Under the pieces are notes generated by a model that was not told the origin of the DNA, did not search any database, and worked only from the letters and a program-made list of their open reading frames with translations. From contig NZ_WJPP01000006.1 in NCBI RefSeq assembly GCF_009649225.1, positions 1-64,000 of the forward strand: a DNA stretch of 64,000 nt, written 5' to 3'. Position numbers and translations under genes: made by a program. This document shows, one piece after another, positions 7,830 to 50,935 of the stretch. The DNA comes from Spiribacter salilacus. Its GTDB lineage: Bacteria > Pseudomonadota > Gammaproteobacteria > Nitrococcales > Nitrococcaceae. The stretch's first letter is position 1, and every line of letters starts with the position of its first letter.

Positions 7830-8137
7830 TCGTTGTGCAATAGGTGATGATGCTGATTGGCCAGCACCAAGCGTCCCGTTTGCACATCAACAGAAACCCA
7901 GAGGTGTTTTAAATGCTCAAGCAAGGGCGCACCAGACACCCCATATACCGCTGAAAAAAATTCATGACTTTTCTCGTCAAGCTGCCATGGCTTATCACGC
8001 AAGAGTGGGCGTGCATAGATTTTATCGGTATCTGACCCGTCTAAAGACACGCGCACCAGGGCAACGCTGCCCGTCTGCCAGGCCGCCTCCAACGTCGGCG
8101 GTGGCTCGTTATTAATCAAACCGATCCAGCGCCGCAA
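7826..8137 (-). CDS. Downstream part of an interrupted hypothetical gene
   Basis: This frame is exactly in phase with the gene at 8153-8512 and separated from it only by a TAG (8153-8155). It continues LSDWELRRWIGLINN without a convincing own start. The nominal TTG at 8137 has no usable Shine-Dalgarno and no ATG exists in the frame. The rest (KIYARPLLRDKPWQLD, HLWVSVDVQTGRLVLANQHHHLL) looks like real protein of unknown family. I think 7826-8512 was one gene of 229 codons, with a CAG-to-TAG change. Alternatives are readthrough, a TTG-initiated separate protein, or a sequencing error. It is the last gene after the secA-like gene; its stop overlaps that of putA. Confidence 0.45.
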   Translation of the reverse strand: MRRWIGLINNEPPPTLEAAWQTGSVALVRVSLDGSDTDKIYARPLLRDKPWQLDEKSHEFFSAVYGVSGAPLLEHLKHLWVSVDVQTGRLVLANQHHHLLHND

Positions 8138-8152
8138 TTCCCAGTCGCTAAG

Positions 8153-8512
8153 CTAATTGGCCCGCGCAAAGGCACTCAAAAACCGCATAAAAGACTGCAG
8201 CCCGGCCGGCTCGATAAACAGATAAAGATTTTGCCCCTCCATGGTATCGGGCTGAATCTCTCGCTCATCAAACGCCGCACCCAGTCGCTGCTCAAGCGCT
8301 GACCACGCCGCGCCGGGCTGCATAGCTAGATGCTGCTCAATAACCCGCTTACCCTCAACTTTGTAAAGGGTCTGTTCATCGGCAGACAAAAAGTAAAGTT
8401 TGACAACACCTTGCGCCGGTTCAAACGCGATGTTGAACAAGCGCGACCGATCGATCCAGCTCGGCAGCCAGTCAAAACCCTGTTGTTTAAAGATAAAATC
8501 GTGATTAAACAT
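8153..8512 (-). CDS. Hypothetical protein following the SecA-like gene (119 aa, ends at in-frame TAG)
   Basis: Family not recognised. The 119-residue product (starts MFNHDFIFKQQGFDWLPSW) is mixed alpha/beta, without signal peptide or membrane helix. It has YFLSADEQTLYKVEGKRV and a C-terminal helix FMRFLSAFARAN just before the stop. Its ATG overlaps the end of the SecA-like gene by 8 bp, so the two are translationally coupled. This suggests a cytoplasmic helper, for instance a chaperone for the giant substrate or for SecA (inference). The TAG that ends it is followed in phase by 103 more sensible codons, so the annotated protein may be a truncated form. Confidence 0.65.
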   Translation of the reverse strand: MFNHDFIFKQQGFDWLPSWIDRSRLFNIAFEPAQGVVKLYFLSADEQTLYKVEGKRVIEQHLAMQPGAAWSALEQRLGAAFDEREIQPDTMEGQNLYLFIEPAGLQSFMRFLSAFARAN

Positions 8513-10442
8513 GATCGGTAAAAGTCATTCGCTCCTGCGACTCGCGGGTGGCCCGATTGATGCGTTTGCGCAAACCAAACGCGCGGCGCTCTGCACGCTG
8601 CTGAGCGGCGCGAATCATTAGCTGCGGTTTTAAACGGGCTAACCAATGAATAGCGCGCGGAAGATTTCGGGTAATAAGCTCATCCTCTAAGCTTGCATAA
8701 CGAAACACCTCGCCCGGCTGCCCCTGCCGCGCGGTTCTTCCGTATAACTGCCAGTCCACTCGAATGCTCTCATGCGGCTCAAACATCATCACACACAGCC
8801 CACCCGCTTCGGCGGCCTCTGGAGACAACTTAATATCGGTACCCCGGCCAGCCATGTTTGTAGCTACGGTAATTTTCCCACTGCCACCGGCTGCCGATAC
8901 GATCTCAGCCTCTAACGCAGGCTGCTTGGCATTCAACAGCTGAAACTCTAATCTTTGCTGGGTTAGTGCTTCCGCCAAAAACTCACTATCTGCCACATTC
9001 CGCGTGCCAATCAGCACGGCTCGCCCCTGCTGATGTAATTGGCGAATACGAGCAACCACCGCATCGCGCTTAGTTAGCCGATCGGCAAACATCTGCACCG
9101 GGTCAATTTGCCTACGCGATGGCACTCGCGGAGGTATACGCAGGGTATGAACGCGGTAGTTAAAGAATAGCTCATGATCGATATCCTGCAGCGTACCGCT
9201 GGCCCCCGCAAGGCGCCCATAAAGCTTAAAAAAGTTCTGAAAACTCAAGCGTGCAAGCGTTCGGCTGGGGTCAGTGAGCGGCACACCGGCGCGGGCCTCA
9301 ATGGCCTGATGCAGGCCATAACTCCAGGTGCGCCCTGGCATACTGCGGCCGGTACCTTCATCCACAATCACCACTTCGTCTTCAAGCACCACATAGTGAT
9401 GATCTTGAATAAACCGCTCACGGGCCAACACCGCTTGGGTAAACAAATCTTCGCGCCGACCACGACTGCGCCACATTGCCGGTAATTGTTTGGCCAGACG
9501 GGCTAAGGCCTCCTGCCCGGCCTCTCGCCAAATCACATCCCGCTGACCGGGCACCAACCGATAATGCCGATCAGTTTCTAACTGCTCGACCAGCGCATGG
9601 GCTTTAGCTACCGCGTCTTTTAGCCCGGGGTTAGGCTCTGGCTCTGAAATAATCATGGGCGTAATCGCCTCATCAATCAGAATCTGATCTGCTTCATCTA
9701 CCAACACATCCTGCAACCCGCGCTGCATTAGCGGCACCGAGGCTTCACCGCGCAAGGTACGCAAACTGGCTTGTATACGATCGACAACACCGCCAAAACG
9801 CACCCGATCAATGAGGTGGTCGGCAATAACCTGTTTGGCAGTCGCATAGACAATCGGCTTGGTATAGGCGATACGTTTTTCCTCGGGGTTCATTTCGGCG
9901 TTAAGCGCCACCGCCTCTAATCGGCAAAAGGCATATAAGGGCTGCAGAAATTCCGCATCACGCGCGGCCAAATACTCGTTAGCGGTAATCAGATGACAGG
10001 GCCCCGGCTCCCAACCCCGGATTACCGCTGCAAGCCCCAGCGTAAGTGTTTTACCCTCGCCTGGCGCCACTTGCACAACATACCCATCGAGCATGGCAAG
10101 CGCCGCCATGATTTGCACCTTGTAGGGTGTTTGGCCGAGCTGCCGGGTTGCCGCCTCGCAAAGCCCCGCTAGTGCGTTGCATAAGATGGCCCGAGAGGTA
10201 TCTATCTGCCGGCGCGCAGCAGCTTGGCGAGATTGGTCCAGCAGCGCCTGTAGCTGGGGATCAGACAGGGTAGACAAGTCTTTAACACTAGCGCTGACTT
10301 GCGCGGCTTCTTGAGCATACTTTGACTCGAGCTGCGAGCGTCTGAGCCGGTGCCAAAGCAGCGCAGGTGCCACCTCAAACCAACGCGGATCCTTTGGAAT
10401 CCGCCGCGTTGGCTCATGCCGAAATGCTGCGGTCATCTCCAT
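8505..10442 (-). CDS. Shortened SecA-like preprotein translocase ATPase
   Basis: A 645-residue paralogue of SecA (about 900 aa). The motor is complete: Walker A APGEGKT (126-132), Walker B VDEADQILIDEA (248-259), and a preprotein cross-linking domain with HHYVVLEDEVVIVDEGTGR (348-366). Motifs SFQNFFKLYGRLAGASGTL (400-418), ATNMAGRGTD (527-536) and GRTARQGQPG (568-577) are also present. It stops soon after the start of the long scaffold helix. The helical wing, the two-helix finger and the zinc/SecB-binding tail are therefore missing. It is the only energy-providing ATPase in the secretion operon; the start overlaps the M50-HlyD stop by one base (TAATG). Inferred role: powering or gating export of the giant protein, possibly with the chromosomal SecYEG or with the M50-HlyD protein. 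Housekeeping SecA is excluded by length and context. Confidence 0.88.
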   Translation of the reverse strand: MEMTAAFRHEPTRRIPKDPRWFEVAPALLWHRLRRSQLESKYAQEAAQVSASVKDLSTLSDPQLQALLDQSRQAAARRQIDTSRAILCNALAGLCEAATRQLGQTPYKVQIMAALAMLDGYVVQVAPGEGKTLTLGLAAVIRGWEPGPCHLITANEYLAARDAEFLQPLYAFCRLEAVALNAEMNPEEKRIAYTKPIVYATAKQVIADHLIDRVRFGGVVDRIQASLRTLRGEASVPLMQRGLQDVLVDEADQILIDEAITPMIISEPEPNPGLKDAVAKAHALVEQLETDRHYRLVPGQRDVIWREAGQEALARLAKQLPAMWRSRGRREDLFTQAVLARERFIQDHHYVVLEDEVVIVDEGTGRSMPGRTWSYGLHQAIEARAGVPLTDPSRTLARLSFQNFFKLYGRLAGASGTLQDIDHELFFNYRVHTLRIPPRVPSRRQIDPVQMFADRLTKRDAVVARIRQLHQQGRAVLIGTRNVADSEFLAEALTQQRLEFQLLNAKQPALEAEIVSAAGGSGKITVATNMAGRGTDIKLSPEAAEAGGLCVMMFEPHESIRVDWQLYGRTARQGQPGEVFRYASLEDELITRNLPRAIHWLARLKPQLMIRAAQQRAERRAFGLRKRINRATRESQERMTFTDHV

Positions 10443-12592
10443 TAAAGCTGATAACGCGCTTTGAGCAACTGTTGTAGCGCTGTCCAGCCCTGCTGTAAGG
10501 GCGGCGCCGGCTCAAGAGCTACGCGAATCGTACCCAAAACCCCATCTTCTAGGCGTGCACTAGCCACCGCATCCAACGGCGCGCGCAGCTCAAAAAACGG
10601 CTCTTGCGCCATCATCCGGCCTTGCTCATCGGGTTGCGCAGCAAACCGCCCGCCGCCGGGAATACCCAACGCTGGGCTGGGCAGCTCACGCCGCTCAAAG
10701 GGTAAAAAGCGCAGGGCTTGCGGATTAATGCGCTGACCCGGATTAGCGTGAATGCGGATTTCTCCGCCAGCCAGTTGACCGTCAAACAAGCTAGAAGCGC
10801 GCTCTTGACTGACCACACCCACAAAAACTTTCTGCTCAGGGGCAAGGACTGTGCCTAGGCGCTGCCCCCGCGTAATTTGTGTTTGTAACTGATCTGGGCC
10901 AATTGAGCGAATCCAAATCCCATCATGCGGTGCACGCACCTGCAGTGCGGTTAGCCTTTCATCAATCTCATCGAGCCTTTGGAGCAGCCATGCTTCACGC
11001 TCTTCAAGCGCTTCAAGATCACCGCTCGACTGATTGACCGCCCGTCGTAGCAACCACCGCACCTCAATAATTTGCTGGCCCGTTAACTCTCGCTCAAGTG
11101 TTAGGGTTTCGTTGCTAAGCTCAAGCAGAACCTGGCCGGCAACGACTGGCTGGCCATCATCCACAGACACCTGCTCTAGTTGCCCACCGGCCGCCGCAAA
11201 AAGCGTGGTTCGCTCTGTTGCCTCAACAACGCCCGGCGCTCGCAGACCTTGCGGCATGGGCCAGGCCGCCAGCAGCGTAATCACCAAGCCCAGCGCTACC
11301 AGTGCCAGAGCCACCGCACGCGGCCTGCCGTGTTGTAGCTCACCATTTCGCGCCAGATATTTCACCCCCTTAACCGCCGGGCCCACCAGCCAGATGTATC
11401 CCATGGCCATCACCATCAACACCCCCAGCACCAGCGAAATATCTGCCATATACAGGGTGATCACCACCATCACCATCAAACGATAAGCAATGCTGCCCAC
11501 CGCATAGCTTAGGTACCACACCCGTGCATAGCGGTCTTCTGCCGGGCTAATGGCACGGCTTACCCTTAAGTAGTATCGCTTGAGCAAATACAACCACTGC
11601 TGAGAGGATTTTTGATACAGATTTGGCAGCCCCGTCAGGTCTGAGAGGATGTAGTAGGCGTCAAACTTGAGCAATGGGTTGCCATTAAAGGCCAGTGATG
11701 AGACTGATCCGATAATCATCACATTAAACGCCAGCGCATTAACCAAGCCCGGGGCCGTCTGTGCCCAAATCAGTGCAGCCAATGCGGCAATAAATAACTC
11801 TACATACATACCAGCAGCTGCCACCATCGAGCGCTGCCATGGGCTGCGTAAAGACCAACTGGCACTGGCATCTGTGTACGGCAGGGGCATTAGGGCAATT
11901 AGCATGATGCCGATGGTATGCACGCTGGCCCCATATCGACGACACACAATGGCATGCCCAAGCTCATGCAATAGCTTTAAGAAAAACAGCGCCACGAACA
12001 GCCAAATCAAATTATCTGCAGCCAGCAGGCCCTGTGTTGCACTGCGAAGCCGATCGGTATTTTGCAAAACAGCACGGGCGCCCAGCACCACCACAATCAA
12101 CCAAATCACAAAAGCCGGTTGGGTAAAAAAGCGCCGTAACCAGCCAATATTGGCTTTTAGCACCTCATCCGGATTCCAAATGGGAATGCGGAAGTACAAA
12201 AACGCCATTAAATAGCTCAGCTTTTCTTTTCGGCGCCCCTTTTGATAGCGCTCAAAAATCCCTTCACTACCGCCTTGAGATCGAAAAAACAGCAAATTCA
12301 TTTGATGAAGCTGCGCGAGCAACGCCACTACTTCTTCTTGGCCCGGGGCGGTTTCGGGGTGGTCTTCACAAAACTTTGACCAAATCTCCTCCACGGTTCG
12401 CCGCGGTGTGAGCTGGCCCACAAATGCCCAGGCCTCGGGTCGCAGGCGATAGTACTTCTCAGAGCAGCTATCCTGCAGCACATACCAAATCTGATGGCGA
12501 TAGGTTTGTTTATGTACTTGCACAGTTGGCAATAACCCAACCCGCAAGGGTGCCACTTGATACCAAGATTCGCTAAAGGTTGAACGTGCCAC
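10442..12592 (-). CDS. PqqD-like / M50 site-2 metalloprotease / HlyD fusion, inner-membrane secretion protein
   Basis: A 716-residue three-part protein. Residues about 10-105 resemble PqqD (peptide-binding winged helix; IWYVLQDSCSEKYYRLRPEA). Residues 155-445 form a multi-helix M50 membrane protease with HELGH (209-213) in LLHELGHAIVCRRYG, and a second metal-site segment NGNPLLKFDAYYILSDL (Asp311; Ala replaces the usual Gly). Residues about 450-700 are a periplasmic HlyD-type adaptor with paired lipoyl halves and a coiled coil. The start is GTG at 12592, after GGCGGCC, 6 bp from the upstream stop. Similar fusions are known near peptide-export systems. Inferred role: inner-membrane anchor that recognises the substrate (PqqD part), may process it, and links to TolC. 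Confidence 0.85.
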   Translation of the reverse strand: MARSTFSESWYQVAPLRVGLLPTVQVHKQTYRHQIWYVLQDSCSEKYYRLRPEAWAFVGQLTPRRTVEEIWSKFCEDHPETAPGQEEVVALLAQLHQMNLLFFRSQGGSEGIFERYQKGRRKEKLSYLMAFLYFRIPIWNPDEVLKANIGWLRRFFTQPAFVIWLIVVVLGARAVLQNTDRLRSATQGLLAADNLIWLFVALFFLKLLHELGHAIVCRRYGASVHTIGIMLIALMPLPYTDASASWSLRSPWQRSMVAAAGMYVELFIAALAALIWAQTAPGLVNALAFNVMIIGSVSSLAFNGNPLLKFDAYYILSDLTGLPNLYQKSSQQWLYLLKRYYLRVSRAISPAEDRYARVWYLSYAVGSIAYRLMVMVVITLYMADISLVLGVLMVMAMGYIWLVGPAVKGVKYLARNGELQHGRPRAVALALVALGLVITLLAAWPMPQGLRAPGVVEATERTTLFAAAGGQLEQVSVDDGQPVVAGQVLLELSNETLTLERELTGQQIIEVRWLLRRAVNQSSGDLEALEEREAWLLQRLDEIDERLTALQVRAPHDGIWIRSIGPDQLQTQITRGQRLGTVLAPEQKVFVGVVSQERASSLFDGQLAGGEIRIHANPGQRINPQALRFLPFERRELPSPALGIPGGGRFAAQPDEQGRMMAQEPFFELRAPLDAVASARLEDGVLGTIRVALEPAPPLQQGWTALQQLLKARYQL

Positions 12593-12598
12593 GGCCGC

Positions 12599-14446
12599 CT
12601 ACCACCAAAGCCAAAGACGCAGACGATTCCACGCCTTATGCCCAATCACCCACAGCGCGCTGCGTTTACCTACATCGATACGCGCAACGCCCGTCATGCC
12701 AGGCCGCCACCAAGGTGCAACAGCGGTATCTAAACTGGCATTAACGGAAAACACCGCACCCTGCCCATCACGCACCTGCGCCATTGGAATAATCTGCTCT
12801 ACGCTCAAGGCGATCTGCTCAGACGGCCGTGCCACTAGAGAAAACGTACCCGTGCTATCCGATTCAACAAACTGAATATCCTCTTCAGCCACATCAATCA
12901 GCAAATAAATGCCGCGTAACTCTGCCACGCGCATTAATCGATCACCCTGATTGACTGGTGCTGAGAGCAAATCACGCCGATCACCCTCAACCACCACGCC
13001 CGTCAGCGGTGCAATGAGCTCAGCTTGATTGACTTGTCGCTGCACCTGGGCAATGCGCGCTCTGGTTTGGGCAACGCGCGCCTCGGCCACTGCGGTATCT
13101 ACGTTATTAAACTCAGCCCGCGCGCGATCAAGCTCAGCTTGGTTGCGCTGTAACTCGGCCTGAAGCTCGGCAAGTTGCAGCAAGCGCTCTTCGGTATCCA
13201 TCACCACCAGCGTGTCGCCAGCTTGAACCGCATCGCCGCTTGTTGCATTGACCTCAGCAACGGTGCCCTGCCAAGGTGCCGTAAGCAGTCGCGTTTCATC
13301 AGTAACAAGGCGCGCCGTACCGCTCACGCGATGAGTGACTGGCGTGACCGCAGCCAACAGCAAGACTGCGCTGAGCACAACAATGGCGGTTTTAATCCAA
13401 AGATTCTCACCGCCAAACCAGCGGCTCACACTCTGGCGCACTCGATAGCCAAGCCGCTTAAACACGCCGGCCTCTTCGCGCCGTAAATTTTGCAGGTGGC
13501 CTACTATGGTTTGCGCCACCAAATAACCGCTAGAAACCGTTTGGGCACTAATTGGGCCAACATAGCTAATCAGCGTGAGGGAGGCAATCGATTCACCATC
13601 GGCATCGTGCAACGGAAACGTGACTAAATCTTTAGCGCCTAGTTGCGCTAGCAGTTGCTGATGGGCCACTTCGATAATACCCGGGGTACCTTCTGCATCA
13701 CCCTGAGCACACTGAATCATCGTATCTTGATCAGCCGCCTCTTCTAAGGCCGCCTCCATCAGTCTGACCTGTTCAGTTTTTCGCTCAAAGCGCTCGTAGT
13801 GGCTAATGAAACGCGCGCGAATATAAGCACCCTCACGCCAACCCAGCACGGCCTGATCTATCCCCTCTGCGGCACTAACCAAACCATTCACCAGGCTATA
13901 GCCTGCGGTTTGAAAACGCTGTGCCTGTAAACAACCAGACAGCACATCTAACAAAGGACCAAGCCCTGCTGACTCAACGCCGCTTTGCTCGGCTTCGTCA
14001 GGCAAAATATCGGCAATGAGCCCCGCCCGAGTGAGCGCCGCTTTAATGGCGTCTTCTGAGTCTGCCTCCAGCCCAACCAGCAAAACAAACGCCTGCTCAG
14101 CGCCGGGCATTTGAATAGCTAAAAAGGGCGGCTCAAAGGGCGCGCCGGGTGAGCGTGCGCGCAGTGCATAGCCACTGGCCTTAACACGACCCAACAGTGC
14201 CTTGGCATCGGGGGCACCCAGCCACCGAGACAGGGCCAAGTCATCAGACCCCACTTGACCGAGCAGCTTGGGGGGCAGATCTTGCTCGGCAACATGAACA
14301 ACCGCCACCCAATCAGCCTGGCAAAAACCCTGCGCCGTGCTTAAGTAACGTGGCCAATCAAATGCATCTAACCCCTGCTGCGCGGCCAAAAGGCGCAAAT
14401 CGCGCAGGTCTTGGAGATAATCAAAGAGGCCTAATCGCTGGCTCAT
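12599..14446 (-). CDS. HlyD-family adaptor with GAF-like cytoplasmic N-terminal half
   Basis: A 615-residue protein. Residues about 1-330 are cytoplasmic, rich in alternating helices and strands with GAF-like features (DLVTFPLHDADGESIASLTLISY), and lack clear catalytic residues. One transmembrane helix (about 350-368, IKTAIVVLSAVLLLAAV) follows. Next comes a periplasmic adaptor: lipoyl half (LLTAPWQGTVAEVNATSGDAVQAGD), coiled coil (LAELQAELQRNQAELDRA), second lipoyl half (AELIAPLTGVVVEGDRRDLL) and beta-barrel. The ATG overlaps the preceding HlyD stop by 4 bp (ATGA), indicating translational coupling. It is one of three HlyD-type modules in the operon. Inferred role: inner-membrane part of the export channel, with the N-terminal half sensing a ligand or contacting the SecA-like ATPase. 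Confidence 0.85.
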   Translation of the reverse strand: MSQRLGLFDYLQDLRDLRLLAAQQGLDAFDWPRYLSTAQGFCQADWVAVVHVAEQDLPPKLLGQVGSDDLALSRWLGAPDAKALLGRVKASGYALRARSPGAPFEPPFLAIQMPGAEQAFVLLVGLEADSEDAIKAALTRAGLIADILPDEAEQSGVESAGLGPLLDVLSGCLQAQRFQTAGYSLVNGLVSAAEGIDQAVLGWREGAYIRARFISHYERFERKTEQVRLMEAALEEAADQDTMIQCAQGDAEGTPGIIEVAHQQLLAQLGAKDLVTFPLHDADGESIASLTLISYVGPISAQTVSSGYLVAQTIVGHLQNLRREEAGVFKRLGYRVRQSVSRWFGGENLWIKTAIVVLSAVLLLAAVTPVTHRVSGTARLVTDETRLLTAPWQGTVAEVNATSGDAVQAGDTLVVMDTEERLLQLAELQAELQRNQAELDRARAEFNNVDTAVAEARVAQTRARIAQVQRQVNQAELIAPLTGVVVEGDRRDLLSAPVNQGDRLMRVAELRGIYLLIDVAEEDIQFVESDSTGTFSLVARPSEQIALSVEQIIPMAQVRDGQGAVFSVNASLDTAVAPWWRPGMTGVARIDVGKRSALWVIGHKAWNRLRLWLWW

Positions 14447-15324
14447 TCCGCGGGGGTCAACTGTACGCGGGCACTTAGCCCGGGACGAATCAGAAAATCA
14501 GGGTTATCAAATTCCACCTTCACCTCAACCCGACCACTGGCCGGATCGGCAATTGGTGAGATAAAGCTGACTCGCCCATCATAACGTTGCCCTTCAACCT
14601 CCACGATTGCTGACATTCCCTGTGTAAGGTTTACCGCTTGTCGGCTGCGTAAGTTAAGGCGTACGAAATTAACCCCACTATCAATCAGTTCAACCGCAGG
14701 GTCACCGGCCTGCACCCATTCACCCGGTTTTGAGGTGACCTGGCTAATCGTACCTGCCACGGGAGCAGTGAGCGTGCGTTGCGCTAAGCGCCCCAACCCA
14801 ATTTCGTAGTCTAATTGTTGTTGCGATTTGGTCAGCACTAACTGATCAACCTCTGCCGCGGCACTCAGCCGCTGCAACTCTAAATTACGCAACTCATCAC
14901 GGCTGACAGAGCCGGTATCCGCAAACAGCATCTCTAAGCTCTCAAGGCGCTCTTCAATAAGCGCCAGCCGACTGCGTGCGGCCGTTAGCGCGCTGTTATC
15001 ACGCCAATCAAGCTCAAGTCGCTCAAGCTCAAGATCTTGAATTTCTTGCTGGAGCACCAGCAAGGGCTGGCCGGCCTCGACCCGCTCTCCTTCATCCACC
15101 GGAGCTTCTGCGACGACGCCGCTCACCTCTAGGGCAAGTAAATACCGCCCGCGCGGGTAGACAACACCCACCAGCGCCTCTGGCTCCACAGCCACAATTT
15201 GCTCTGGCGAGAAATTTCTAAAATCTTCTGCGGGGTCTTCTTGCGCGAGGGCAAGAGACCCCATCCAACATCCTGCACCGATTAAACAACAACAGTGAAT
15301 AAAACGGCTTAACTCAAATTTCAT
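14443..15324 (-). CDS. Periplasmic HlyD/RND-type membrane fusion protein
   Basis: A 293-residue adaptor. The N-terminal signal sequence (MKFELSRF then CCCLIGAGCWMGSLALA) is followed by a mature part with lipoyl halves (VVAEAPVDEGERVEAGQPLLVLQ and TLTAPVAGTISQVTSKPGE) around a helical hairpin (LELERLELDWRD to LVLTKSQQQLDYE). A beta-barrel and the typical RPGLSARVQL end close it. I chose the ATG at 15324, overlapping the TolC stop by 11 bp, because the longer frame to 15510 would read 62 residues inside the tolC-like gene before the signal peptide. Expected to bridge the TolC-like channel and the inner-membrane components. The sequence lacks an obvious lipobox, so it is probably soluble periplasmic. 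Confidence 0.87.
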   Translation of the reverse strand: MKFELSRFIHCCCLIGAGCWMGSLALAQEDPAEDFRNFSPEQIVAVEPEALVGVVYPRGRYLLALEVSGVVAEAPVDEGERVEAGQPLLVLQQEIQDLELERLELDWRDNSALTAARSRLALIEERLESLEMLFADTGSVSRDELRNLELQRLSAAAEVDQLVLTKSQQQLDYEIGLGRLAQRTLTAPVAGTISQVTSKPGEWVQAGDPAVELIDSGVNFVRLNLRSRQAVNLTQGMSAIVEVEGQRYDGRVSFISPIADPASGRVEVKVEFDNPDFLIRPGLSARVQLTPAE

Positions 15325-16885
15325 CCGCGACTTCCAGCTCGACACCCAACTCATCGAGTAGAGTACCATCTGATAGCCGTAGTGATGACTTTGCCAACTC
15401 GTAACGAACCTCAGCATCGATAGCGCGTAGCCGTGCAATGTTAAGCGCATCTTCCCGGCCAAGCACGGCCCGCACAGACGATTCTCCACGCTCAAACGCT
15501 GTTCGCTCACGCTGCAATAACTGATTCAGAATCATCACGTTATCGTTATGGCTTTGCAGTTCTTGGTAAGTGGTGCTGACTTGATTTAAACGGTTCATCA
15601 GCTGATTACCCACTTCGCCACGAATGGCTTTAGCTTCTAGCTGCGATTGCCGAACCTGCGCGCGGGCCACGGCTTCTTCTGCGCGCCCGCGCCGACTGCC
15701 GCCAAGCTTGGTTGACCACTCAATGCCAGCCACCCACTCGGGGTACTCACTCTCAAACGATTCATCAAAGGCATCGCTCAGCGAATTTTCAAAACTTCTG
15801 GCGTTTTGCCCGTAAGAAAGAATTAAATCTAGGCTGCTACGCCGATCGTCTTGAACCATCTTGATCGACTCATACCCAATCGCGACCTGCTTGTTGGCAA
15901 TTTGATAACTTGGCCAAATATCGAGCACTTGCGCCACATAGGCTGAAAAATCCTCAGGCGGGTTAATCGGCCCAATATCTGGCTCAGCAGCTGCCTCAAA
16001 TTCCCAGTCTCCGTATTCAACGGGGTCGACGTCGAGCAAGCGGCGCATTTCCGCTTGTGACTGACTCACCTGCTGCGATGCCGCTGCTAGCTCGGCCTGC
16101 CGTACCAGCAAGCCAGACTCCGCATCATCAATGGCACTCTGCGGCAGCCGCCCGGCCAACACTAAGCGCCGTGAATCCTCTAACAATGCCTCGGCATTGG
16201 CCACAGAGCCAGACGTTAGCGCCGCTGTGCGCTGTGCGCGATACATCTGCCAGTAGGTTCGCAGCACATTAAAGCTGCTATCCAATAAGCGGCGTTGCAT
16301 TTGCTGATGGGCAATATCTAACTGATGCTTGGCCTGCTGAACCGCACCTTTAATGCCCACCGCACCGCGGCCGCGCAACAGCGGCTGACGAATTTCAAAG
16401 CGTACATTTGCGATAACATCATCAAAGCCATCTGGATCATCACCTGATGAAGCATTACTAAACCGATCGCTTGCCTCATAACTCAGCGTAATCTCAGCAC
16501 CCGTGCCCACCAAGGAGCGAATACCAAACTCCCCATAGCTCGTTTCATCAATCAAAACGGGGCGATCAGGCCGATCGAGGCTATTTTTACGCTCAGTTTC
16601 GCTACGCTCTACATTGGCAAAAAACTCAGGCTGCCAGCCACCTTTTTCTGCCTCCACGCGCTGTTCACCAATTTCAATATCTTCTGCGGCAATTAACACA
16701 TCGGTATTTCGCAGTAAGGCCCACTGCACCGCCGTTGAGGGATCAAACGCCAGCGCACCGCCATGCTCAGCACGCAGTGCACGCTCAAGCGCCTCGGCAT
16801 CGAGCTGTGCCGCGTTGTTACCAAAGGCTATAGGCGCAGCTAAGACCACAGACCCTATCGTTAAACGCTTTAAAAACGTACGCAT
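15314..16885 (-). CDS. TolC-family outer-membrane efflux/secretion channel
   Basis: A 523-residue outer-membrane factor. A Sec signal peptide (MRTFLKRLTIGSVVLAAPIAFG) is followed by two internally similar halves, each with long amphipathic helices. These carry typical pieces such as QWALLRNTDVLIAAEDIEIGEQRVEAE, IRQPLLRGRG, and RTAFERGESSVRAVLGREDALN (quoted in parts). I chose the ATG at 16885; the frame opens at 16915, but those ten residues precede the signal peptide and overlap sapC. AAAGGAAG lies upstream of the ATG, and the sapC stop is 4 bp before it. It forms the outer-membrane exit duct for the operon. Compared with SapF of Campylobacter fetus it has the same place next to sapC. Confidence 0.9.
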   Translation of the reverse strand: MRTFLKRLTIGSVVLAAPIAFGNNAAQLDAEALERALRAEHGGALAFDPSTAVQWALLRNTDVLIAAEDIEIGEQRVEAEKGGWQPEFFANVERSETERKNSLDRPDRPVLIDETSYGEFGIRSLVGTGAEITLSYEASDRFSNASSGDDPDGFDDVIANVRFEIRQPLLRGRGAVGIKGAVQQAKHQLDIAHQQMQRRLLDSSFNVLRTYWQMYRAQRTAALTSGSVANAEALLEDSRRLVLAGRLPQSAIDDAESGLLVRQAELAAASQQVSQSQAEMRRLLDVDPVEYGDWEFEAAAEPDIGPINPPEDFSAYVAQVLDIWPSYQIANKQVAIGYESIKMVQDDRRSSLDLILSYGQNARSFENSLSDAFDESFESEYPEWVAGIEWSTKLGGSRRGRAEEAVARAQVRQSQLEAKAIRGEVGNQLMNRLNQVSTTYQELQSHNDNVMILNQLLQRERTAFERGESSVRAVLGREDALNIARLRAIDAEVRYELAKSSLRLSDGTLLDELGVELEVADEI

Positions 16886-16889
16886 CGTT

Positions 16890-17588
16890 TTATGCTTCCT
16901 TTGCCAACCGTTCAATCTGACTGAGCGAGGTTAAATGCGAGAACATGGGCGCTAAGTAACGTTTATCCCGAATCTCTAGGAAGAGTTTGTCAGATAGGTT
17001 GTAAATCCGCTCCTCATTAATCACGTAACAACCCGTTACATTCCGCATTGTGTCGCCTTGGCGTACCCGCATATTCAGCGGATTAAACAAATTATGCTCT
17101 GAGAGGAAATGGCAAAACTGTTGGGTGAACACCTCCATTTGCTGCATTTCGCCCAAATAACGCTTCACATTCTCAACCACTCCCGTTGGCTCGCCTTCGT
17201 CGTCAAATAAGGGCTCGCCTTCCTCAGCACTCACAAAATCAGAGTCTTCGTCTAAACAAACCGTAAATTGATCTTCATCTTCACCCAGTCGCGCCAGCGC
17301 AAAGGGATAGCGGCGAATAATGGCGGGCACGTAGGAGGCATTCCAGCTGCCGTCTTCAGCTAAAAACAAATTCTCACCCGCCTCTAAGCCCAATAACACC
17401 ACGGGCCGAAACTCATCTTTTTCTTTATCTTCAAGAAAAACAATAGGATAAACGGATGCGGCCCGCGCAAATTCGTGCACCATCAGCGAGGCAATATGAA
17501 AGCCTTTCGCAAAGCCAAAGTTATCAATTGGCTTCACTTTGAGATTGGCATGGGTTTCACGATTTAACGGGACTAATTTGCTAAACAT
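16890..17588 (-). CDS. sapC: SapC family protein
   Basis: A 232-residue member of the SapC family, named from the Campylobacter fetus sapCDEF operon that exports S-layer proteins. The biochemical role of SapC is not established. Recognisable blocks: KLVPLNRETHANLKVKP, GFHIASLMVHEFARAASVYPIVF (in parts), RPVVLLGLEAGENLFL, YVPAIIRRYPFAL, and the acidic FTVCLDEDSDFVS. No signal peptide or membrane helix, so presumably cytoplasmic. GGAG lies 6 bp before the ATG. It stands between the giant gene (92 bp upstream) and the tolC-like gene (4 bp downstream), linking substrate and export genes. It may be a dedicated cytoplasmic secretion factor or chaperone (inference). Confidence 0.92.
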   Translation of the reverse strand: MFSKLVPLNRETHANLKVKPIDNFGFAKGFHIASLMVHEFARAASVYPIVFLEDKEKDEFRPVVLLGLEAGENLFLAEDGSWNASYVPAIIRRYPFALARLGEDEDQFTVCLDEDSDFVSAEEGEPLFDDEGEPTGVVENVKRYLGEMQQMEVFTQQFCHFLSEHNLFNPLNMRVRQGDTMRNVTGCYVINEERIYNLSDKLFLEIRDKRYLAPMFSHLTSLSQIERLAKEA

Positions 17589-17680: not shown

Positions 17681-18240
17681 TCAAAATACAAACTCCGATT
17701 CCAAATCAAAGCTCAGCACCCCTGAAAATGACTGGCCAAGGCATGAAAACTGCAAACTGCTAAACGGATTAACAACCATGCTGCAGGCCAACGGCCCTGA
17801 GAGATTAAACCCCGGTTGCCAGAGCGCTTCAGGCGGGCGAACCGTGTAAAAGCTATCTTGCTCTGCCGCTAGAAAACCCGCACGCCAAAATCGATCGGCA
17901 TCACGGCTTGGGATGTTGTCTAGCCATGCGCGCCCCATATCAAACGCAGAGCGGCCAGCTAGCGGCGGCCTTTCTGGCCGCGCATCGTCAGCAAGCGCCG
18001 CACCCAGGCCATACGCAATCAACGGAAACTCTCGGTCAACCCAGCCACCCATGATGTTGGCGCGATTATTAAGAGAAACTAAAAATACGCCCTGATTATT
18101 AGGCCCAGTTTGATATAAAAAGGCATGCCCACGCTGATCAATTAAGCCAAGACGCTCGCCAGAGCCCGCCGGCAATGTAATGGTGTTAGCAGACACCTTA
18201 ATGAGCCGATCTTCCATGCCCAGCAACTGCCCCCGTACGC
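17681..18240 (-). other. Conserved C-terminal domain of giant protein 1
   Basis: The last ~185 residues are non-repetitive: FLYQTGPNNQGVFLVSLNNR, YGLGAALADD, then LWQPGFNLSG, VVNPFSSLQF and a phenylalanine-ending tail (FDLESEFVF). The same blocks close the paralogue (50333-50935). Conservation at the extreme C-terminus suggests an export signal or outer-membrane/S-layer anchor (inference). Confidence 0.6.
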
Positions 18241-21200
18241 CAGAAGCGGTGCCCGTAACGCCGGCTGGCGCGGCCTGCCAAAACAGGTTGTTTGCCTCTA
18301 TATTGGCCGCCATGCCCGGGTTAGCACTAACTACCTGCTGTGCACCTGCATTAATGCGCACGTCTCCGCCGGTTGCCAGCCTGGCTAGCTGCATCGTACC
18401 GCCAGTAGCCTGATAGTCGATCGTGCCCGTATTCGAACGGGTGATACTGCCCGCTTCCATGCGAATAACCGATGCCCGATATTGCACTGGCCCGGCCAAA
18501 ACATCAGATTGTTGAGTGATCGTGCCGCCGGCTGTCAGATCAAGCCGGCTGCCTTGCAGATTGGCGCCCAATAATTCCGCATCTTCGCCAGCCTGTAAGC
18601 GAAGCGCACCCCCCGCATTAACGTCACCTAAAAACTGAATGCCACCCCCAGTGGTGATATTCAGCGCATTACCGATGCCGCTGGTGCCATCGAGCTCAAC
18701 ATTGCCACCGGCTTGCAGTTGTAACGAGCCTGAGGCATTAACACCTTCAGCCAGGCGAATATCTCGCTCGGCACGCAGGTCAACCAACCCATCAACCTGC
18801 AAATCAACGGGTACCGTCGCGAGAATGTCGCGGCCTGCCGTGATATCTAAAGTGCCATCGACCAGCAAGTCTTGCAGCGCCAAATCACCAATATCGTTTA
18901 GCGCCACATCGCCGGCGTTGGTAATACCAAGCTGGCCCGAAAAATCATTGGCCCCTAACAAGCGCACGGTCTCGGGCTTTTCAGTCAGGCCATCAACCGC
19001 GCGCAGCACCGTATCGCCCTCTACCATCAGCGTGGCGGCGGTTGTTTGCTCAATGGCGCCGCCACTGTTGAGGTTTAGATTACCGCCTACCACGCTGCTT
19101 TCAGTAAATAACGTTGCGTTTTGCTCAACAATCAAGGCATTGCCCGTTGTGCCCAAGCGCAGTGAGCCTGCCGTGAAGTCAGCATCTAGACTTGAACCCA
19201 TATCAACAGAGGCGCCCCGCAGCCATGCCTGCCCATCAATCTGAATAACGGCGTTTTCTGTATTAAGCACGGTGCCATTGGCGGCATCCGCTATTGCCAC
19301 TAAATCTCCCGTGAGTGTGGTGTTGCCTAGTAACAGATCACCCTCCGTGTTCAGGTAGGCATCGCCCGTATCTACTAATACCTCACCCCCTAGGGCATGG
19401 ATGTTGTCTAACGTAATGGCTGTGGCTTCAAACTGGCTGGTGCCGGTGGTTTCTAGCCGCCCACCTGCAGCCCGATCCGTTACATTTCCATCCGTTATCA
19501 ACACCAGTTCTGCCACGGCGCTGGTGTTGGCAAATACCACATCGCCGGTGTGCGTAATCTCTACGCGTCCATCGCTATTAAGGGTTAGTGCATCGGTGCT
19601 CAAGCTGCGGCCATCGCCCTGCCCCAGATTAATGCGGGTACCGGTAAAGCTTGCATCTCGGGTAACCGCAATTTGAGCGGTGGTTGTGCTATCCAGCGCA
19701 CCCCCCGAAACCACCGTTAAATTGCCACTCACCGTTTGATCGCCCAAAGTTAATGCATCAAGGTCGGTAAGCGAAACATTGCGCCCCACCGTCTCCACCG
19801 TGCCACCAAAGCCATGGGAATTAGTAAGCGTGATATCCCGCTCTGCATCAAATTTGGCTGATCCTGAGATATCGAGAATACCCAGCGCGGTGTTACCAAT
19901 GTCTCCAGCGTCTACCGTGATATCCACATCGCCGCCCACCTCAGAAACACCGGCAAAGTCAAAGCCACTGGCCAGTGTTAAGGTGACAGCATTGTCGGTT
20001 TCTAGACGCAGGCTGCCTACATTTAGCGCAGCACCGGTTATGTTGGTTATGGCGCCGGTGGCTGTAAGATCAGTCAGATAGGTGATGTCGACCTGATCGA
20101 GCGCTAGCGCACCGGTCACATTCAGCGTTAAGGCATCGGCTTGCGCGCTCACGGCATTGCCTGAAAGGTCATGTCCATTATCCAGCGTAATGGCATAGCG
20201 CACATCGGCCTCGTCAACCGCTGTTAAACTGACTGGGCCAGAAGCAGTTAACACCCCACCCGCTTCCTCAAGCTCGCCATCGTCCATCGCGCCAGCGCTT
20301 TGCAAGGTAACGGCGGCTGCACTACTTGCATTGCTCAGCGTCATCGCGCTGTCTTCGGCAATATCAACCGCGCCCCCGGTGGTAAACCGGACTGATCCAA
20401 ACTGCGTGGTGCCTGCCGTATCAACGGTAATGTCACCATCGTTTTCTGCTTGGAACCAGGCCTCGCCGCCTATCTCAATACGCTCATCCGCGCCGTTTGC
20501 CAGTAAAATCGCTACGCCTTTAGATTCACCATTATCGGCTTTGATATGGGCATCTCCGGTGATGGTGATTTGCGCATCGGCTGCCGTCTCGATAATTCCG
20601 TCTGAACGCATAATCAGGCTATCGGCCGTATTCACGCCGTCTATGCGGATATTGTTGCCATTGGTGGAGTTAACAATGGCCTCACCCGTTGTATTAAAGG
20701 TAATGGATTCCGTTTCAAAGGGCGGGTTATTGCCCACTCGCAGGCTGGCTGCAGTAATATCTGTGCGTCCACCCACCTTAATACCGTTTCCAGACTGCGT
20801 AAGCGCACCCGTTACCCGAATCGTTAGATTGCCATCCGTACGAGTCTCATCGAGCACCAGATCGATACTATTTTCAATTTCAATATCATGTTCACCGGTG
20901 TTTTTGAGCGACACCGCGCCGCGGAACTGGTTATCGGCATGATCCAGCGTTATCGCCCCATCACCGGTAATGAATTGGGTGAGCCCGGCCTCAGCCGCTT
21001 GGGTAATGGCACCGCTTTGAGTGATATTACCGCCGGCGGTAACCGTGAGCGCGCCACTGCCTAAGGTGGCTGCATCTAATGTTAATGCCTGCGTACCGCC
21101 CTGGTGGATGGCCACATCATGCTCACCACTGTTTTGCAAACGAACCACATCAGCAAACTGGTTATTGGCATGATCAAGAATAAGACTACCAGCCCCGGCA

Positions 21201-24200
21201 TCAAACCGAGCAAAACCACTCACCGTTAACGCGCCGCTTTGCGTAATGCCCACACCGCGCACCACAAGGTTGCCCGACACATTCATTTGAGCCAGGTTTA
21301 TTGCAGACTGACTAGACACCACGGTGGTATCGCCACCATCAATTAGCGTGAGCGCGCCACTAATCGTATAGTCTTCTTCGTCTAGCAGGATCCTGGCCCC
21401 TTCAGACTCGGTCAGCATGATGGCATCGCCCGCCACCTCAATGGTGTTGAACTGAACAATGTTGCCCACCACCGTGGTTAAGTCTAAATTGCCAGATAGA
21501 TCAATTTTGCCAAGCTCAAGCGTTCGTGCGCTGAGCAGCTCAACGCTCACAGCTTCTAGCGCAACCTGCCCCACAAAATGATTGTCGCGGTCAGTTAGCG
21601 TAATGCCACCCGTGCTGGTTAATGAGGTAGTGCCTGCTACTTCTAACTCAGCACTTTGGGTGATTGCACCATCGGCATCGATCGACAGGTTGCCTTTAAT
21701 ATCAGCGCCCGCTAGCAAAATGGCCTGTGCCGAGCCAAGCTCAACATGGCGTGCAACTAAAATCTGCAGGCCATCATCAAAGGTATGCTTGCCGGACAGT
21801 TGAATGTCATCATCTGCAGTAGCGCTGAGAACAGCGGCGCCGGTTACCTCAAGCACGCCAGTGCCGGTTAAACCACCGGAGGCCACTAAATTAAGCGTAC
21901 CGCCAATGGTGCTGGTGCCGCTGAGCTCTACGGCGACATCTCCGCTTAACTCTAGGTCTACATCAGCGCCAACCTCAAGCATGAGGCTGCCAACCGTTAT
22001 CTCAGCATTTAATGTCTGGTTCACCGAGCCGGTGGTCACAAGCGTGAGCTGATCAGATAGCGCCACCTGATCAAGTGTGATTGCGTTGGCCTTGATGAGG
22101 GCAGACTGACCACTCAGTGATAGCGTGCCATCGAATTGATTGACGACTGTTCCGTTGGCAAGAGAGATAGTCGCCCCTGCGCCCACACTCAGATTGGTAT
22201 TTCCATCAACCTCTAGCACGGTTGTGCTATCGCTGGTAATGCCCGTTTCGGCATGCAAGTCGAGATCACCGCTGATTGTGCTCACACCCAACAGCTGCAC
22301 CGTGCCATCTGACTCAATGGTGACATTGCCTGCTGCCGTTATTTTTAAGCTACCTACGGTAAAACTGCCGTCCGCCGCTTGAGTAATAGCCCCATCCGCG
22401 TCAACGCGCAACTCGCCACCCACATCAATTGCGCCAAGCTCAAGGGCTGAACCGCTTTCTAAATCGAGGGACCCGGTTGTTTGCACGGCATTAACCACCA
22501 TGTTGGTGGCGTAGATGGTTGTTGCCACGGGCAACACTGCCGCCGTGCCATCGGTAAGACCTAAATTGACGCTGCCGGTGACCGTATTACTCAGCTCACC
22601 CACATGCAGGTGTGAAAACCCGCTAATCCGATTTAATTCGGCTTGGTCAAGGGTCAGCTGATCACTATCACTGGCTGAACCCCCTAACTGAATACCCCGG
22701 TTGGCTTTTTGAGTGTGGATTGTGAGCTCGCCATTGCCGCTTATTGCGGCATCAATTTGCAAGGCGTTGGTTTCCAGCGATACATCGTTATCAACGCTCA
22801 CGGTATCGCCCAAAATAATCGACTCTGCACCGTTGATTGTGAGCGCCGTGGCATCGACTGCCGCATTTAGGTTGGCTATGCCGCCATCAAGCTGCAGGTT
22901 GACCTGATCGCTTCCATCGGCACCGCCCTGCACGCGATTGGCATTAATGGTTACGCCACCCGCCTGCCCCGCGTTTTGACCGCTCAGCACCACATTGCCA
23001 CCAAATCGCACATCATCTGCGCCGGTGATATTCAGGTTAGCGCCATTTTCAAGGGTAACCCCCTCGGCAAAATAGATATCACCGGTAGTTTGCAGATCTA
23101 AATCAGCAGACAGCGTTAGCGCTTTGTGGAAGGTAACATCGCCACTGGCATCAACGCTGAGCGTATCGGCTAAATCCAGCGTTTCATGAAAATCGATATC
23201 GCTGGCATCTATAATGCTTAAGGTTTGTAGCAACCCGGTTGTTTGCGTTGCGCCGGTGCCCGCACCAATCGCGCTAAAGATGCTCACGGCGCCGCCATTG
23301 GTAGCGGTAAGCGTTAGCGCACTATTGGCGGTCTCATCATGCGCTGCCAGGTAAAATGGCGTACTGAGGCCATCGCGCCCCAGCGTAATATCGCCGCCGC
23401 TGGTTAGCTCAATATCGCCATCCACACGAATTGAATCGTCGATCACGATATTACCGGCCATTTCAATATCGTTGGCCAAGCGCAACGTATTACCCGAACC
23501 AACCAACTGGAAGTTATTGCCCATCACCTTGCCATCGATAATCAATGTATCGGCATTGATATCCACATCGCCCGACCCCGCATTAGTTGTGCCGGTCAGG
23601 CGAAGTTCCTCATCGCCATTTGAGGTGATGTTAAGCCCGTTGCTGGTCAGGTTATTGAGGTTGGTTTTGGTACCTGCCTGTCCATTCAAGTTCAGATTGG
23701 CCGACTTTTGGGTAAGGAGTTGCAAGTGGCCGAGAACGCCAGTTGAAATGATCCCGTCAATCGTTACCTGAGTATTCGAATTGATTGCGGTGCCGGCATC
23801 ATCGGTATCTACCCCATCAATTTGAACAAACTGGTTTTCATTGTTGTGCGTGTTCAGATTAACGTTGCCGCCCTTGCTATTAATTAACCCGCCAATGATT
23901 TCTGTGAGGTTATTCAGGCTCACATTCAACCCAGGTTGCTTACCCACAATTTCGATTTGTTTGGTGTTGGTATTTAGCTCGGTTTCTAATTCCGTCCCAA
24001 CCGTCAGCTTGTTGGCCGTAATCGTCTTTCCGTTGCCCTCAATACGCTTACCGGCTAGGCGAATATCCGATGTTGCGGTGCCCACATCATCACCAATCAC
24101 CACCTCATCCTGAGTGCTTTCTAAGTCTAGGGCTTGGCCGTTTTCAAGCTGCAAGTCAGTGACGCGAATGGTGCCGGTGGCGCGTGAGCTCAAAGGCACA

Positions 24201-27200
24201 AAGTCATCCGATGCACCCTCGCTTGAACCGATCTGCTGATTGGTTACCGCAAACCGGCCCGAGACCACAGTATCTCCCTGCACTGGTGCCTCATCGGTGC
24301 CCTCAAGCCTGCCTAACTCAATGGCTGCTTGCGACACACCATCCTGAGTAAAATCGCCAGACTCATTGTTGACAACGAGATTGGGGCGCTGCGCATTGCC
24401 AACAGCAGGCAACTCTGTGCCATTAATGGTGATGTTGTGCGCAAACACCTGATAGGCGTTGGGGCTGGCAAACGCTGCACGGCGGATGTCGCCAATGGTG
24501 TCGAGCGTGACGGTGGCGTTTTGACGATCGTTGGTTTCGTTACCCACATCGATGCGGCCCAGGTCGATGTTGCCTAGCGTGCGGACATCAAAATCATTCC
24601 CCACGCTATCACGGAGGATCTGAACATCACGCAACACAAGATCACCACGGCTGCGCAGGGTGATGGCGCCATCGTCGGTGCGCAGACGCTCTACATCCAA
24701 ATCGCCAGTCTGACGTAGGTCGATATCACCAACATCCGTGCGGATATCCACTGTTTGCACATCGGTGCTCAGCGCCACATCACCCACTGATCGCACCGAT
24801 AGGTCGGTTGTGCGCAGCAAGCCATTCGAACTCATCGTGAGTCGATCGGCATTGATCTCGATGTTCTCGGTGGCATTGATCACGCCAGAACCAAAACTCA
24901 GCTCTGCCGGTTCTTCATCATTACCGCTTTGTGCATCTATGCGCAGCGCCGCCAGTGGATCGAGCGCAGACAGACCCGCCACCACGCCATTGACGTTAAA
25001 GCTATTCTGGGTGCTGACAAAAATGGTTTCTTCGGCTCTAAGATCAACCTGATCGACCGCCAACGCAGGCGCATTAATCGAGATGAAGCCGGTGCCGCGG
25101 GCGGCGGCAGAGTCATCGTTAACTGGCGCAGGCACATCGCCGATGACCTCGAGCGCGCTCAAGCTACCTTTACCCTCGGCACGCATCACCAGCCGATCGA
25201 TCACCACCGGATCATCAGTAGCATCAAGGTCAGCCCAGCGCTCAAGACTGCCGTTGACCAGCACATTGGCATCTGAGCGCAAGTCCACTAAGGCCCGCGC
25301 CGCCAGATCAGCATCGATCATCAACGCCGCACCAAAACGGCCGGCTTCATCGCCACTGTAGGTGGACTCGATGATGATGCGGTTAGCCTGCATATTCTCT
25401 TCGAACCGCACGGTGCGATCGCCGGCATCGCCCGCTGGGTCACCAAACTGGAAGCGGCTGGCGCGGTATTCGAGCGTGCCCGGTGCCTGATCAAACTGGC
25501 GGAATGCATCGAGCGTGCCGCCAGTGGCGATCAGCGCTAGGTTGTGAAAGCCGGTGATCGGGTCATCCTCAGCGTCTGTCCAACCATCGGCCGGGCGATC
25601 GATACGCAAGGTGCCAGATTCGGCCACGAGTTTGACCGAACCACCACCACTGGTCATGTGTGCGTCTGGCCCCAGTATTAAATTTTCCTCGGCACTCAGC
25701 GTGATCGTTCCATCGCCAACCAGCGTTACCGTGCCCACATTCAGGCTGCGGCCCAGCACCGTGGTGCTGCCATCCCCGTTGCTCTGGGCGCCATCGGCCT
25801 CGATGATTTCCCGATCATTCAGCTCGATGTTACCGCTTTGACTCTCTGCATCCAGACGGTTGATCGCCACCTCAAGCCCGGTAATACCGGTTTGTGCAGT
25901 GAGGTCCAGACTTTCAGCGCGGATCATCACTGCAGACCGGTCGGTCATGCCAATAATATCGGCATCTGAAGTCAGCGTGACGGAGCCGACGGCGCTATCG
26001 CGGGTGGCATCAAAGTCGGCCTCGGCATCCGGTGTGCCTCCAACGCTGTCATCAAAACCAAAAAAGCCCAAGCTGCTACCACGTAGCCAAATGTCTTCCA
26101 CCACAATTCGCTGATCTGAATCGACCGTCAGATCCCCGCCATCCAGCACCATGGTGCCCAGCGTCAGCTCAGTGCCAGATTGGTCAATAATCAGATCCCC
26201 TCTGCGCAGCTCGGCATCGAGGCGACCGGTTTGTGTGCGCAGATTGATTGTGCCGCCGGCCGACAACACCAACTCAGCAGCTTGCAGCGCTGGGCTGCTG
26301 GCGTTGACGTAGGTGATGCCACCGGCAGCGTTCAGCTCGAGTCGGCCTGCGCTCACCACCTCGCCGAGAGTCAGTTTCGCCCGGGCATTGGCAGCCGCAT
26401 CGGTATCATCGGCGTCTTGAATGTTTTCGGCGAGGGCGGTTTCGATTTTTACCGACAGCTCTGAGTCTTCACCCGTCAAGTTGGCCGAGGTGAGCGTGAG
26501 GTCGCCGGTATGGCGAATCAGCATGTCGGCGCTCTGACCTGCCAGGTGCAGCGCGCCAATGTTGGTCAGATCGGCGCGCACCAATTCATTCGCCTCAATG
26601 TGTAGGCTATCGGCAATGACGTTTGCGCCGGGCATCAGTTGCTCAAAGCTGTCAGCATCTCCGCCTTGGATAACGGAGCCGCTAGCCTGCAGGGTAACTG
26701 ACCCCGTCTCACCAAGCGCCTCCACCAAGGCCAGTGGTGACGTGCCATTATTGGTCTCGCCCGGCCGCAGCACCACATCACCGCCAGTGCTCTCCAGCGT
26801 GATCGACTCCCCTCGAACCGCGCCAGTCACCACAACGTTGTTGGCAGCGGTGGCCATGACTGATTGGGTATTCACCGGAGTGCCCTCGTCTTCAGCGGAG
26901 GCGCCGACCTCGCCATTCACGGTCATGCTGCTGCCCGCATCCAACGTAATCGTCTGACCCTCAAGCACACTGGCTGCAGCCACCGACAAGCTGGTTCCGG
27001 CATCCACCGTCAAAGCGGCATCAGCCGCCATGCGACCACTCAGCGATACACTGCCACCCGTTGAAATTCGGATGTTATCGCCCCGCAAAGAATCGGCCTC
27101 AAATTCGGCAACGGACACTTCTTTTGAATTAAAGCCCGGCACTTGAACTTCTTGCGCGTCCAGAGTTACCACCGGCTCACGCCGCCAAACATTGCGCTCA

Positions 27201-50332: not shown

Positions 50333-50935
50333 TCAGAGTGTCGGCGTAGCAATCAGATCAAAATCCAGCAGATCGGGCAGGGTTTGCCCGAGGCTCCAGA
50401 ATTGTAAGCTACCGTAGTGGTTAACCACCAAGCTGCCGGTGCCTAGGCCCCAGAGGTTATAGCCAGGCTGCCAGAGATCACCCGGTAAACGCATGGTCAG
50501 CAGGCTATCTCGCGCGCCACTTCCCACAAGGGTCTGTGACTCACGATCACCCCACATGCTTTCACGCCATTCCGAAAGGAAGCTAGAGCGCGACATGCGA
50601 TCACGCTCAAGCATGCCCTGACCAAACCATGAGCCTGCTCGGCTATCAAGCAACAGTGAGTTGTTAGGGCCTGCCGCATCCTCTGAAAGCGCCGCCCCAA
50701 GCCCGTATGAGCGAAGCAGTATCTCCCGGTCTAGCCATGGTGCTAGCCCGGCGCGATTACCTACCGAAATCAAGAACACGCCCTGGTTTTGCGGGCCACT
50801 TTGATAGAGGAAGCCGTTGCCATCTCTATCGATTAGGCTCAGCCGATCACCAAATCCAGCGGGTAGGCGAATTGAGTTTGCAGAAACTTTAATCAGCTCA
50901 CTTTCTAAATCAAGCAACTGCCCACGCACACCGGG
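50333..50935 (-). other. Conserved C-terminal domain of giant protein 2
   Basis: About 200 residues from GQLLDLESELIKVSAN to the end match the end of giant protein 1: FLYQSGPQNQGVFLISVGNR, YGLGAALSED, LWQPGYNLWG and VVNHYGSLQFW. A stretch rich in Arg/Ser/Trp (FLSEWRESMWGDRES) is inserted relative to the other copy. Shared ends with unlike middles point to a common export or anchoring signal. Confidence 0.6.

Follow-up and report, generated by a model that had tools for sequence, protein, structure and literature searches.

The 64,000-nucleotide stretch of Spiribacter salilacus DNA analysed here (the window) encodes a member of a distinct, conserved and widespread family of short SecA proteins, which keep the SecA motor and preprotein clamp and stop directly before the wing. 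Their genes are linked to those of an M50-HlyD fusion protein, and they probably help to power an unrecognised export route; with modest confidence, we assign to them the role of an accessory cytoplasmic ATPase in an envelope machine dedicated to exporting giant LEPR-XLL proteins. SecA is usually treated as one machine, its finger and scaffold being needed for moving proteins through SecY. If our reading is correct, the SecA motor can be put to work on another channel, since a natural family consisting of motor and clamp is tied to another membrane machine, and some bacterial proteins that are among the largest known (3,000–14,000 aa) have an export route in which the N-terminal leader is defined and the receptor can be tested. 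The initial annotation of this DNA, which the present analysis follows up, left out the LEPR-XLL giants, the PqqD-like domain, and those M50-HlyD systems that have no short SecA.

Domain content and end point of the short SecA

The short SecA frame opens with an ATG at 10442 on the minus strand, and its 645-residue product matches the Pfam families SecA_DEAD (2.2e-69), P-loop_SecA (3.1e-42) and SecA_PP_bind (6.7e-22), with no Pfam match to the wing/scaffold family SecA_SW. It has the organisation of the SecA superfamily, a DEAD motor made of NBD1 and NBD2 with its motifs and a PPXD inserted in NBD1. Walker A, DEAD, GRGTD and QLxGRxxRQG are all intact, in agreement with the initial annotation, which had described the ATPase and preprotein-binding motifs as such. 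When the protein is aligned to E. coli SecA, with domain limits that we take from general knowledge, the alignment covers 218 of 220 and 39 of 39 residues in the two parts of NBD1, 139 of 157 in the PPXD, 164 of 204 in NBD2 and 41 of 52 in the first scaffold helix, and none of the 83 residues of the wing, the 77 of the finger and second scaffold part, or the 69 of the C-tail. The final residue pairs with approximately residue 671 of E. coli SecA, so that the protein includes the whole length of the first scaffold helix and stops just short of the wing; the wing, two-helix finger and C-tail are missing. Neither the complete scaffold, the wing and the two-helix finger of a housekeeping SecA nor its C-tail zinc/SecB motif is present. 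The loss of wing, finger and tail had been recognised correctly, although the end had been placed just inside the scaffold helix, which is slightly too short.

Modelled alone with AlphaFold2, a check that the initial annotation had proposed, the protein gives a confident structure (pLDDT 88, pTM 0.85) with a last helix at residues 606–640. The best PDB matches of this model are SecA structures, across both motor and clamp.

A conserved family of short SecA proteins

The genome (2.2 Mb, 99.99% complete) also encodes a normal full SecA, a 913-aa frame on another contig that carries the C-tail zinc/SecB motif. SecA_SW matches this full SecA and no other gene genome-wide, and the idea that a separate gene supplies the missing domains, raised with the original reading as an objection to it, was therefore rejected.

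We searched 369 genomes of the window's class with the window short SecA protein. The matches split into short proteins (E < 1e-93, frames mostly 650–760) and full-length proteins (best value ~1e-86, frames of ~900 or more). An additional short SecA interrupted by a contig end (G366) was found by profile, for a total of 24 genomes drawn from ~20 families. Roughly 30 genomes of a wider phylum sample carry a short SecA, and the closest named relatives of the window protein are in Nitrincola and in Oceanospirillales MAGs. Plasmid-borne short SecAs are publicly labelled as SecA, translocase, prepilin peptidase, DEAD/DEAH helicase or hypothetical protein; the label 'prepilin peptidase' or 'DEAD/DEAH box helicase' is attached to those of L058 (11222–13138), L059 (11171–13132) and L068 (8731–10716). 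Labels of this kind keep the family hidden in databases.

Twenty-seven short SecAs from alpha- and gammaproteobacteria are 638–703 aa long, end at a common point and keep the ATPase residues. They have a C-terminal pattern in common, comprising Q614, an R625 that never varies and, in most of them, LxF(S/T)G at the very end, and this pattern lies exactly where the wing would start. We compared them with 13 full-length SecAs, nine of them gammaproteobacterial and the others from Listeria, Nocardia, a Variovorax plasmid and a Lactobacillus plasmid (with its own SecY adjoining). In the resulting tree, a quick one in which some rows have unusual composition, the short proteins make up one side of a branch with an SH-aLRT of 100. 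The dN/dS ratios are 0.17 and 0.21, and cover two pairs of short SecAs; the pair L003/L004 was left out because its synonymous sites are saturated.

If the gene were a recently truncated copy of housekeeping SecA now in decay, it would also lack the C-terminal domains, and this is all that speaks for such an origin, which we consider highly improbable. Against it stand the same end in 27 diverse sequences, the invariant catalytic residues, dN/dS values near 0.2, the co-occurrence with M50-HlyD in every genome with a short SecA (see below), and the separate clade, phylogeny being the test that had been named for this question at the outset. We reject decay on the tree, dN/dS, motif conservation and co-occurrence together.

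Gene order at the locus

The genes on the minus strand follow one another in transcription direction as two giants, SapC, TolC-like OEP, HlyD, long HlyD, M50-HlyD and short SecA (Table 1), and the same core order is present in the same-genus relatives G383 and G386. Most of the loci fetched have the extended HlyD, M50-HlyD and short SecA genes consecutively, commonly with overlaps of 1–8 bp. The typical arrangement on alphaproteobacterial plasmids is a giant gene (~8,100 to 12,700 aa) followed by DUF3467, HlyD, M50-HlyD and short SecA, with HlyD and TolC after them in some cases.

Table 1. Features of the short SecA locus in the window.
Feature	Coordinates	Strand	Basis or remark
119-codon ORF overlapping the short SecA end; probably outside the conserved system	8153..8512	-	no homologue in related loci
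Short SecA, 645 aa: NBD1, PPXD, NBD2, first scaffold helix; without wing, finger, C-tail	8505..10442	-	ORF, Pfam, alignment, AlphaFold2
PqqD-like / M50 site-2-protease-like / HlyD fusion, 716 aa, HELGH + NxxPxxxxD; 1-bp overlap with short SecA start	10442..12592	-	
HlyD adaptor with long N-terminal region, 615 aa	12599..14446	-	
HlyD/RND-type periplasmic adaptor, 355 aa as called	14443..15510	-	
TolC-like outer-membrane efflux protein (OEP)	15314..16915	-	
SapC-family protein, recurrent beside the system	16890..17588	-	
Giant repeat protein, 10,763 aa, LEPR-XLL leader N-terminal (FALEPLEQRILLSADP); proposed substrate	17681..49972	-	
Second giant repeat protein, C-terminal part; proposed second substrate	50333..63985	-	frame open to contig end 81634

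Several features of these loci are worth recording in their own right. The relatives of the shorter HlyD adaptor are ~280 aa long, so its true start is probably further in. A GAF domain, which is sensor-like and unusual for a secretion adaptor, is found on the long HlyD adaptor in 12 of 16 relatives. SapC genes recur beside the loci in gammaproteobacteria (the window, L039, L040, L044, L136 and others), as do DUF3467 genes in alphaproteobacteria. The frame of the second giant is open for more than 10,400 codons and reaches the end of its contig, C15; positions ~1–400 of contig C11 encode a LEPR leader very like that of the first giant, which may be the N-terminus of the second, although the two contigs do not overlap at their ends.

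The small gene downstream had been put forward as a possible partner of the short SecA, a suggestion that we do not uphold. A 229-codon frame (7826–8512, minus strand) lies directly after the short SecA and is split by an in-frame TAG at codon 120, no homologue is detectable in the other loci, and its highest-scoring alignment to the downstream ORF of L004 was no better than shuffles.

Coupling to the M50-HlyD fusion

M50-HlyD was found in all 24 genomes with a short SecA and in 33 of the 345 others (369 genomes; Fisher p = 2e-22), although this p-value and those given below overstate the evidence somewhat because genomes share ancestry and are not independent draws. The two genes adjoin in 21 of the 24 genomes and also in six annotated alphaproteobacterial plasmids. 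With the frequent gene overlaps, this adjacency makes M50-HlyD the probable partner, as had been conjectured in the initial annotation, where a different partner was expected. The short SecA is apart from the M50 gene in G081 and G310 and near a contig edge in G354. G081 and G310 belong to one family, in which the short SecA sits next to GGDEF/EAL and histidine-kinase genes (L041/L046), away from the M50-HlyD/LEPR locus (L097/L100).

Short SecA is missing from 33 of the 57 M50-HlyD genomes and is not obligatory for the M50-HlyD apparatus; it is thus an addition and not part of the core, or else those machines use another energy source. Its absence there tells against a simple motor role. Some of the systems without it have LLSAD-type leaders (L087, L088 and Thalassospira L060). 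Plasmids of E. coli and of Citrobacter also encode the M50-HlyD fusion. In the E. coli case, plasmid NZ_CP081687 (L062, L083), no short SecA accompanies it, and its neighbour is an Ig-like protein of ~4,460 aa whose leader reads LESRQLFDGAA.

The M50-HlyD fusion and the giant LEPR-XLL proteins

HExxH and NxxPxxxxD, which in M50 (site-2) proteases lie in membrane helices, are likewise so placed in M50-HlyD and are invariant in 24 of 24 sequences. The fusion further has a periplasmic HlyD part and a putative PqqD-like N-terminal region. The PqqD profile PF05402 matches 11 of 24 relatives (best 1.6e-6), the window copy scoring 0.005, below the cut-off, and an M50-HlyD profile matches PDB 3g2b (PqqD) at 1e-4. 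The fusion also matches the daptide_HExxH family (NF041824) at 6e-44 and 151 bits, under the 300-bit family cut-off. Its structural model is of moderate quality (pTM 0.54) and offers no sign of a pore for protein passage; the Foldseek matches listed for it are only periplasmic adaptors (MacA, MexA, AcrA and similar). RiPP pathways use PqqD-like domains for leader-peptide binding (PMC7470986), and on the basis of homology and co-occurrence the corresponding region of M50-HlyD may bind the LEPR leader.

The giant LEPR-XLL proteins are likely candidates for the substrates. The window giant starts MGVFQSFKRLSTALHRAADAEQPRDIFALEPLEQRILLSADP and shares the LEPR-XLL domain (NF012209, 5e-7). At a match threshold of E of 1e-3 or better, LEPR-8K proteins were detected in 18 of the 24 short-SecA genomes and in 11 of the remaining 345 (p = 2e-18); of the 29 LEPR genomes, 27 also encode M50-HlyD (p = 7e-23). 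LEPR giants directly adjoin the genes of the system in several loci. The LEPR motif lies 16–57 residues from the called start and is preceded by a basic stretch. In peak hydrophobicity, almost all of these N-termini fall below the signal region of the window TolC. Leaders of the LLSAD/LFSAD type go with long HlyD proteins and sometimes with a short SecA; those of the MFDGA/LFDGA type go with shorter HlyD proteins and, in the loci seen, with no short SecA. We found no export route for LEPR-XLL proteins in the open-licence literature.

Proposed role and alternatives

The mechanism that we infer takes in ATPase activity of the short SecA, its contact with M50-HlyD, binding or cutting of the leader, and a path of export. 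The N-terminal leader of the giant, as its sequence shows, is basic and not hydrophobic, has an LExR-xLLSAD core, and stands in place of a normal Sec signal peptide. By homology and co-occurrence, the PqqD-like domain of M50-HlyD would bind this leader, and the S2P-like M50 domain, with its invariant catalytic residues, might cleave it or form the inner-membrane passage. The unfolded chain would be held in the PPXD clamp of the short SecA, where ATP would be used to prevent folding and to drive the chain into the machine, a step suggested by the intact motor and clamp and by the gene coupling. HlyD adaptors and TolC could then take the giant over the periplasm and outer membrane, much as their homologues do in type I secretion. 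The ATPase would be an optional addition, since related machines exist without a short SecA. A fuller version of the proposal is that these genes constitute a new class of secretion system, in which PqqD-M50-HlyD recognises, and perhaps cuts, the LEPR leader and passes the giants straight to HlyD/TolC, with energy coming from the fingerless SecA and not from an ABC transporter or SecYEG; we advance this version tentatively and regard it as more doubtful than the accessory role itself.

Work on E. coli SecA bears directly on the place where the push is delivered. Fragments 1–649 to 1–668 (N649–N668) have ATPase activity scored as +++ and 0% pOmpA translocation with SecYEG (PMC5456053, Table 1), with strong pore formation and high ion-channel activity in the presence of SecYEG; pOmpA translocation requires residues up to 828–831 (PMC5456053). 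The natural short SecA stops at about the same place as these fragments. We thus expect it to be an active, clamp-bearing ATPase but not to carry out ordinary SecYEG translocation, and favour a route in which the giant is handed to the M50-HlyD/HlyD/TolC assembly. Lacking a finger, the protein should not drive ordinary translocation through SecYEG, and the push would have to go to the M50/HlyD proteins. It is accordingly unlikely that the short SecA acts on ordinary SecYEG, alone or mixed with housekeeping SecA, with M50, HlyD and TolC serving only after the inner membrane. The genome does have a single SecY, the AlphaFold2 model superposes best on SecY-engaged SecA (6itc, 5eul; TMq 0.79–0.80, versus ~0.67 for most free SecA), and on this account M50-HlyD systems without a short SecA would use housekeeping SecA. 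However, most LEPR leaders have no Sec-type hydrophobic core, and the short SecA gene is linked to M50-HlyD and not to sec genes.

Retention of motor and clamp with loss of the membrane-facing parts would also suit a cytoplasmic holdase or unfoldase, or a quality-control ATPase, that keeps chains of 3,000–14,000 aa unfolded outside the translocation step, and a patchy presence among M50-HlyD systems fits such a helper. We nevertheless judge this to be improbable. LEPR giants of similar size (frames of 7,459–8,576 in G177 and G284) occur in genomes with M50-HlyD and no short SecA, and the close translational link with the gene for the membrane fusion points to a direct complex.

Comparison with known systems

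No description of a short SecA/M50-HlyD/giant system was found in the open-licence literature. With housekeeping SecA (TIGR00963 / PRK12904) the short SecA shares a homologous DEAD motor and PPXD clamp and the conserved Walker/DEAD-box motifs, but it lacks the wing, the finger, the second part of the scaffold and the C-tail, scores 423–437 bits where the cut-offs are 800 or more, and belongs to a separate clade with other gene neighbours. Almost the same architecture is seen in the laboratory truncations SecA-N68 (E. coli SecA 1–609, PDB 5k9t) and N649–N668 (PMC5456053), although these are artificial and have neither a dedicated partner nor a conserved C-terminal motif of their own.

The accessory Sec system (SecA2/SecY2), as described in PMC5076819 and PMC5578698, resembles the present one in that a second SecA is linked to the gene of a large surface protein, there an adhesin. 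SecA2, however, is near full length (795 aa in a plasmid example), and the one accessory SecA included in our tree sits with the full-length SecAs, so that the grouping of short SecA with SecA2, which the initial annotation had proposed to examine by phylogeny, does not emerge. The SecA2 system has SecY2, whereas there is one SecY in the whole window genome, and neither Asp proteins nor a second SecY were identified in the window locus. With no second SecY and the wrong clade, we reject an accessory Sec identity for the short SecA.

Type I secretion (ABC-HlyD-TolC) also has HlyD adaptors and TolC beside a giant repeat adhesin, as in the window locus, where an HlyD adaptor and a TolC outer-membrane protein are both present. 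A C-terminal signal is usual for type I substrates; the window system has instead an N-terminal leader, an M50-HlyD fusion in the inner membrane, and no adjoining ABC transporter. None was found by Pfam among the eight window genes or among the annotated neighbours of the plasmid systems, and a motif-pattern scan of the loci without short SecA flagged two ORFs, neither of which adjoins the M50 gene. With the M50 proteases that process RiPP leaders (daptide HExxH, NF041824; YydH/LiaK), M50-HlyD has the M50 motifs and, probably, a PqqD-like domain in common; unlike them it falls below the family cut-off, is fused to HlyD, and is linked to giants and not to small peptides.
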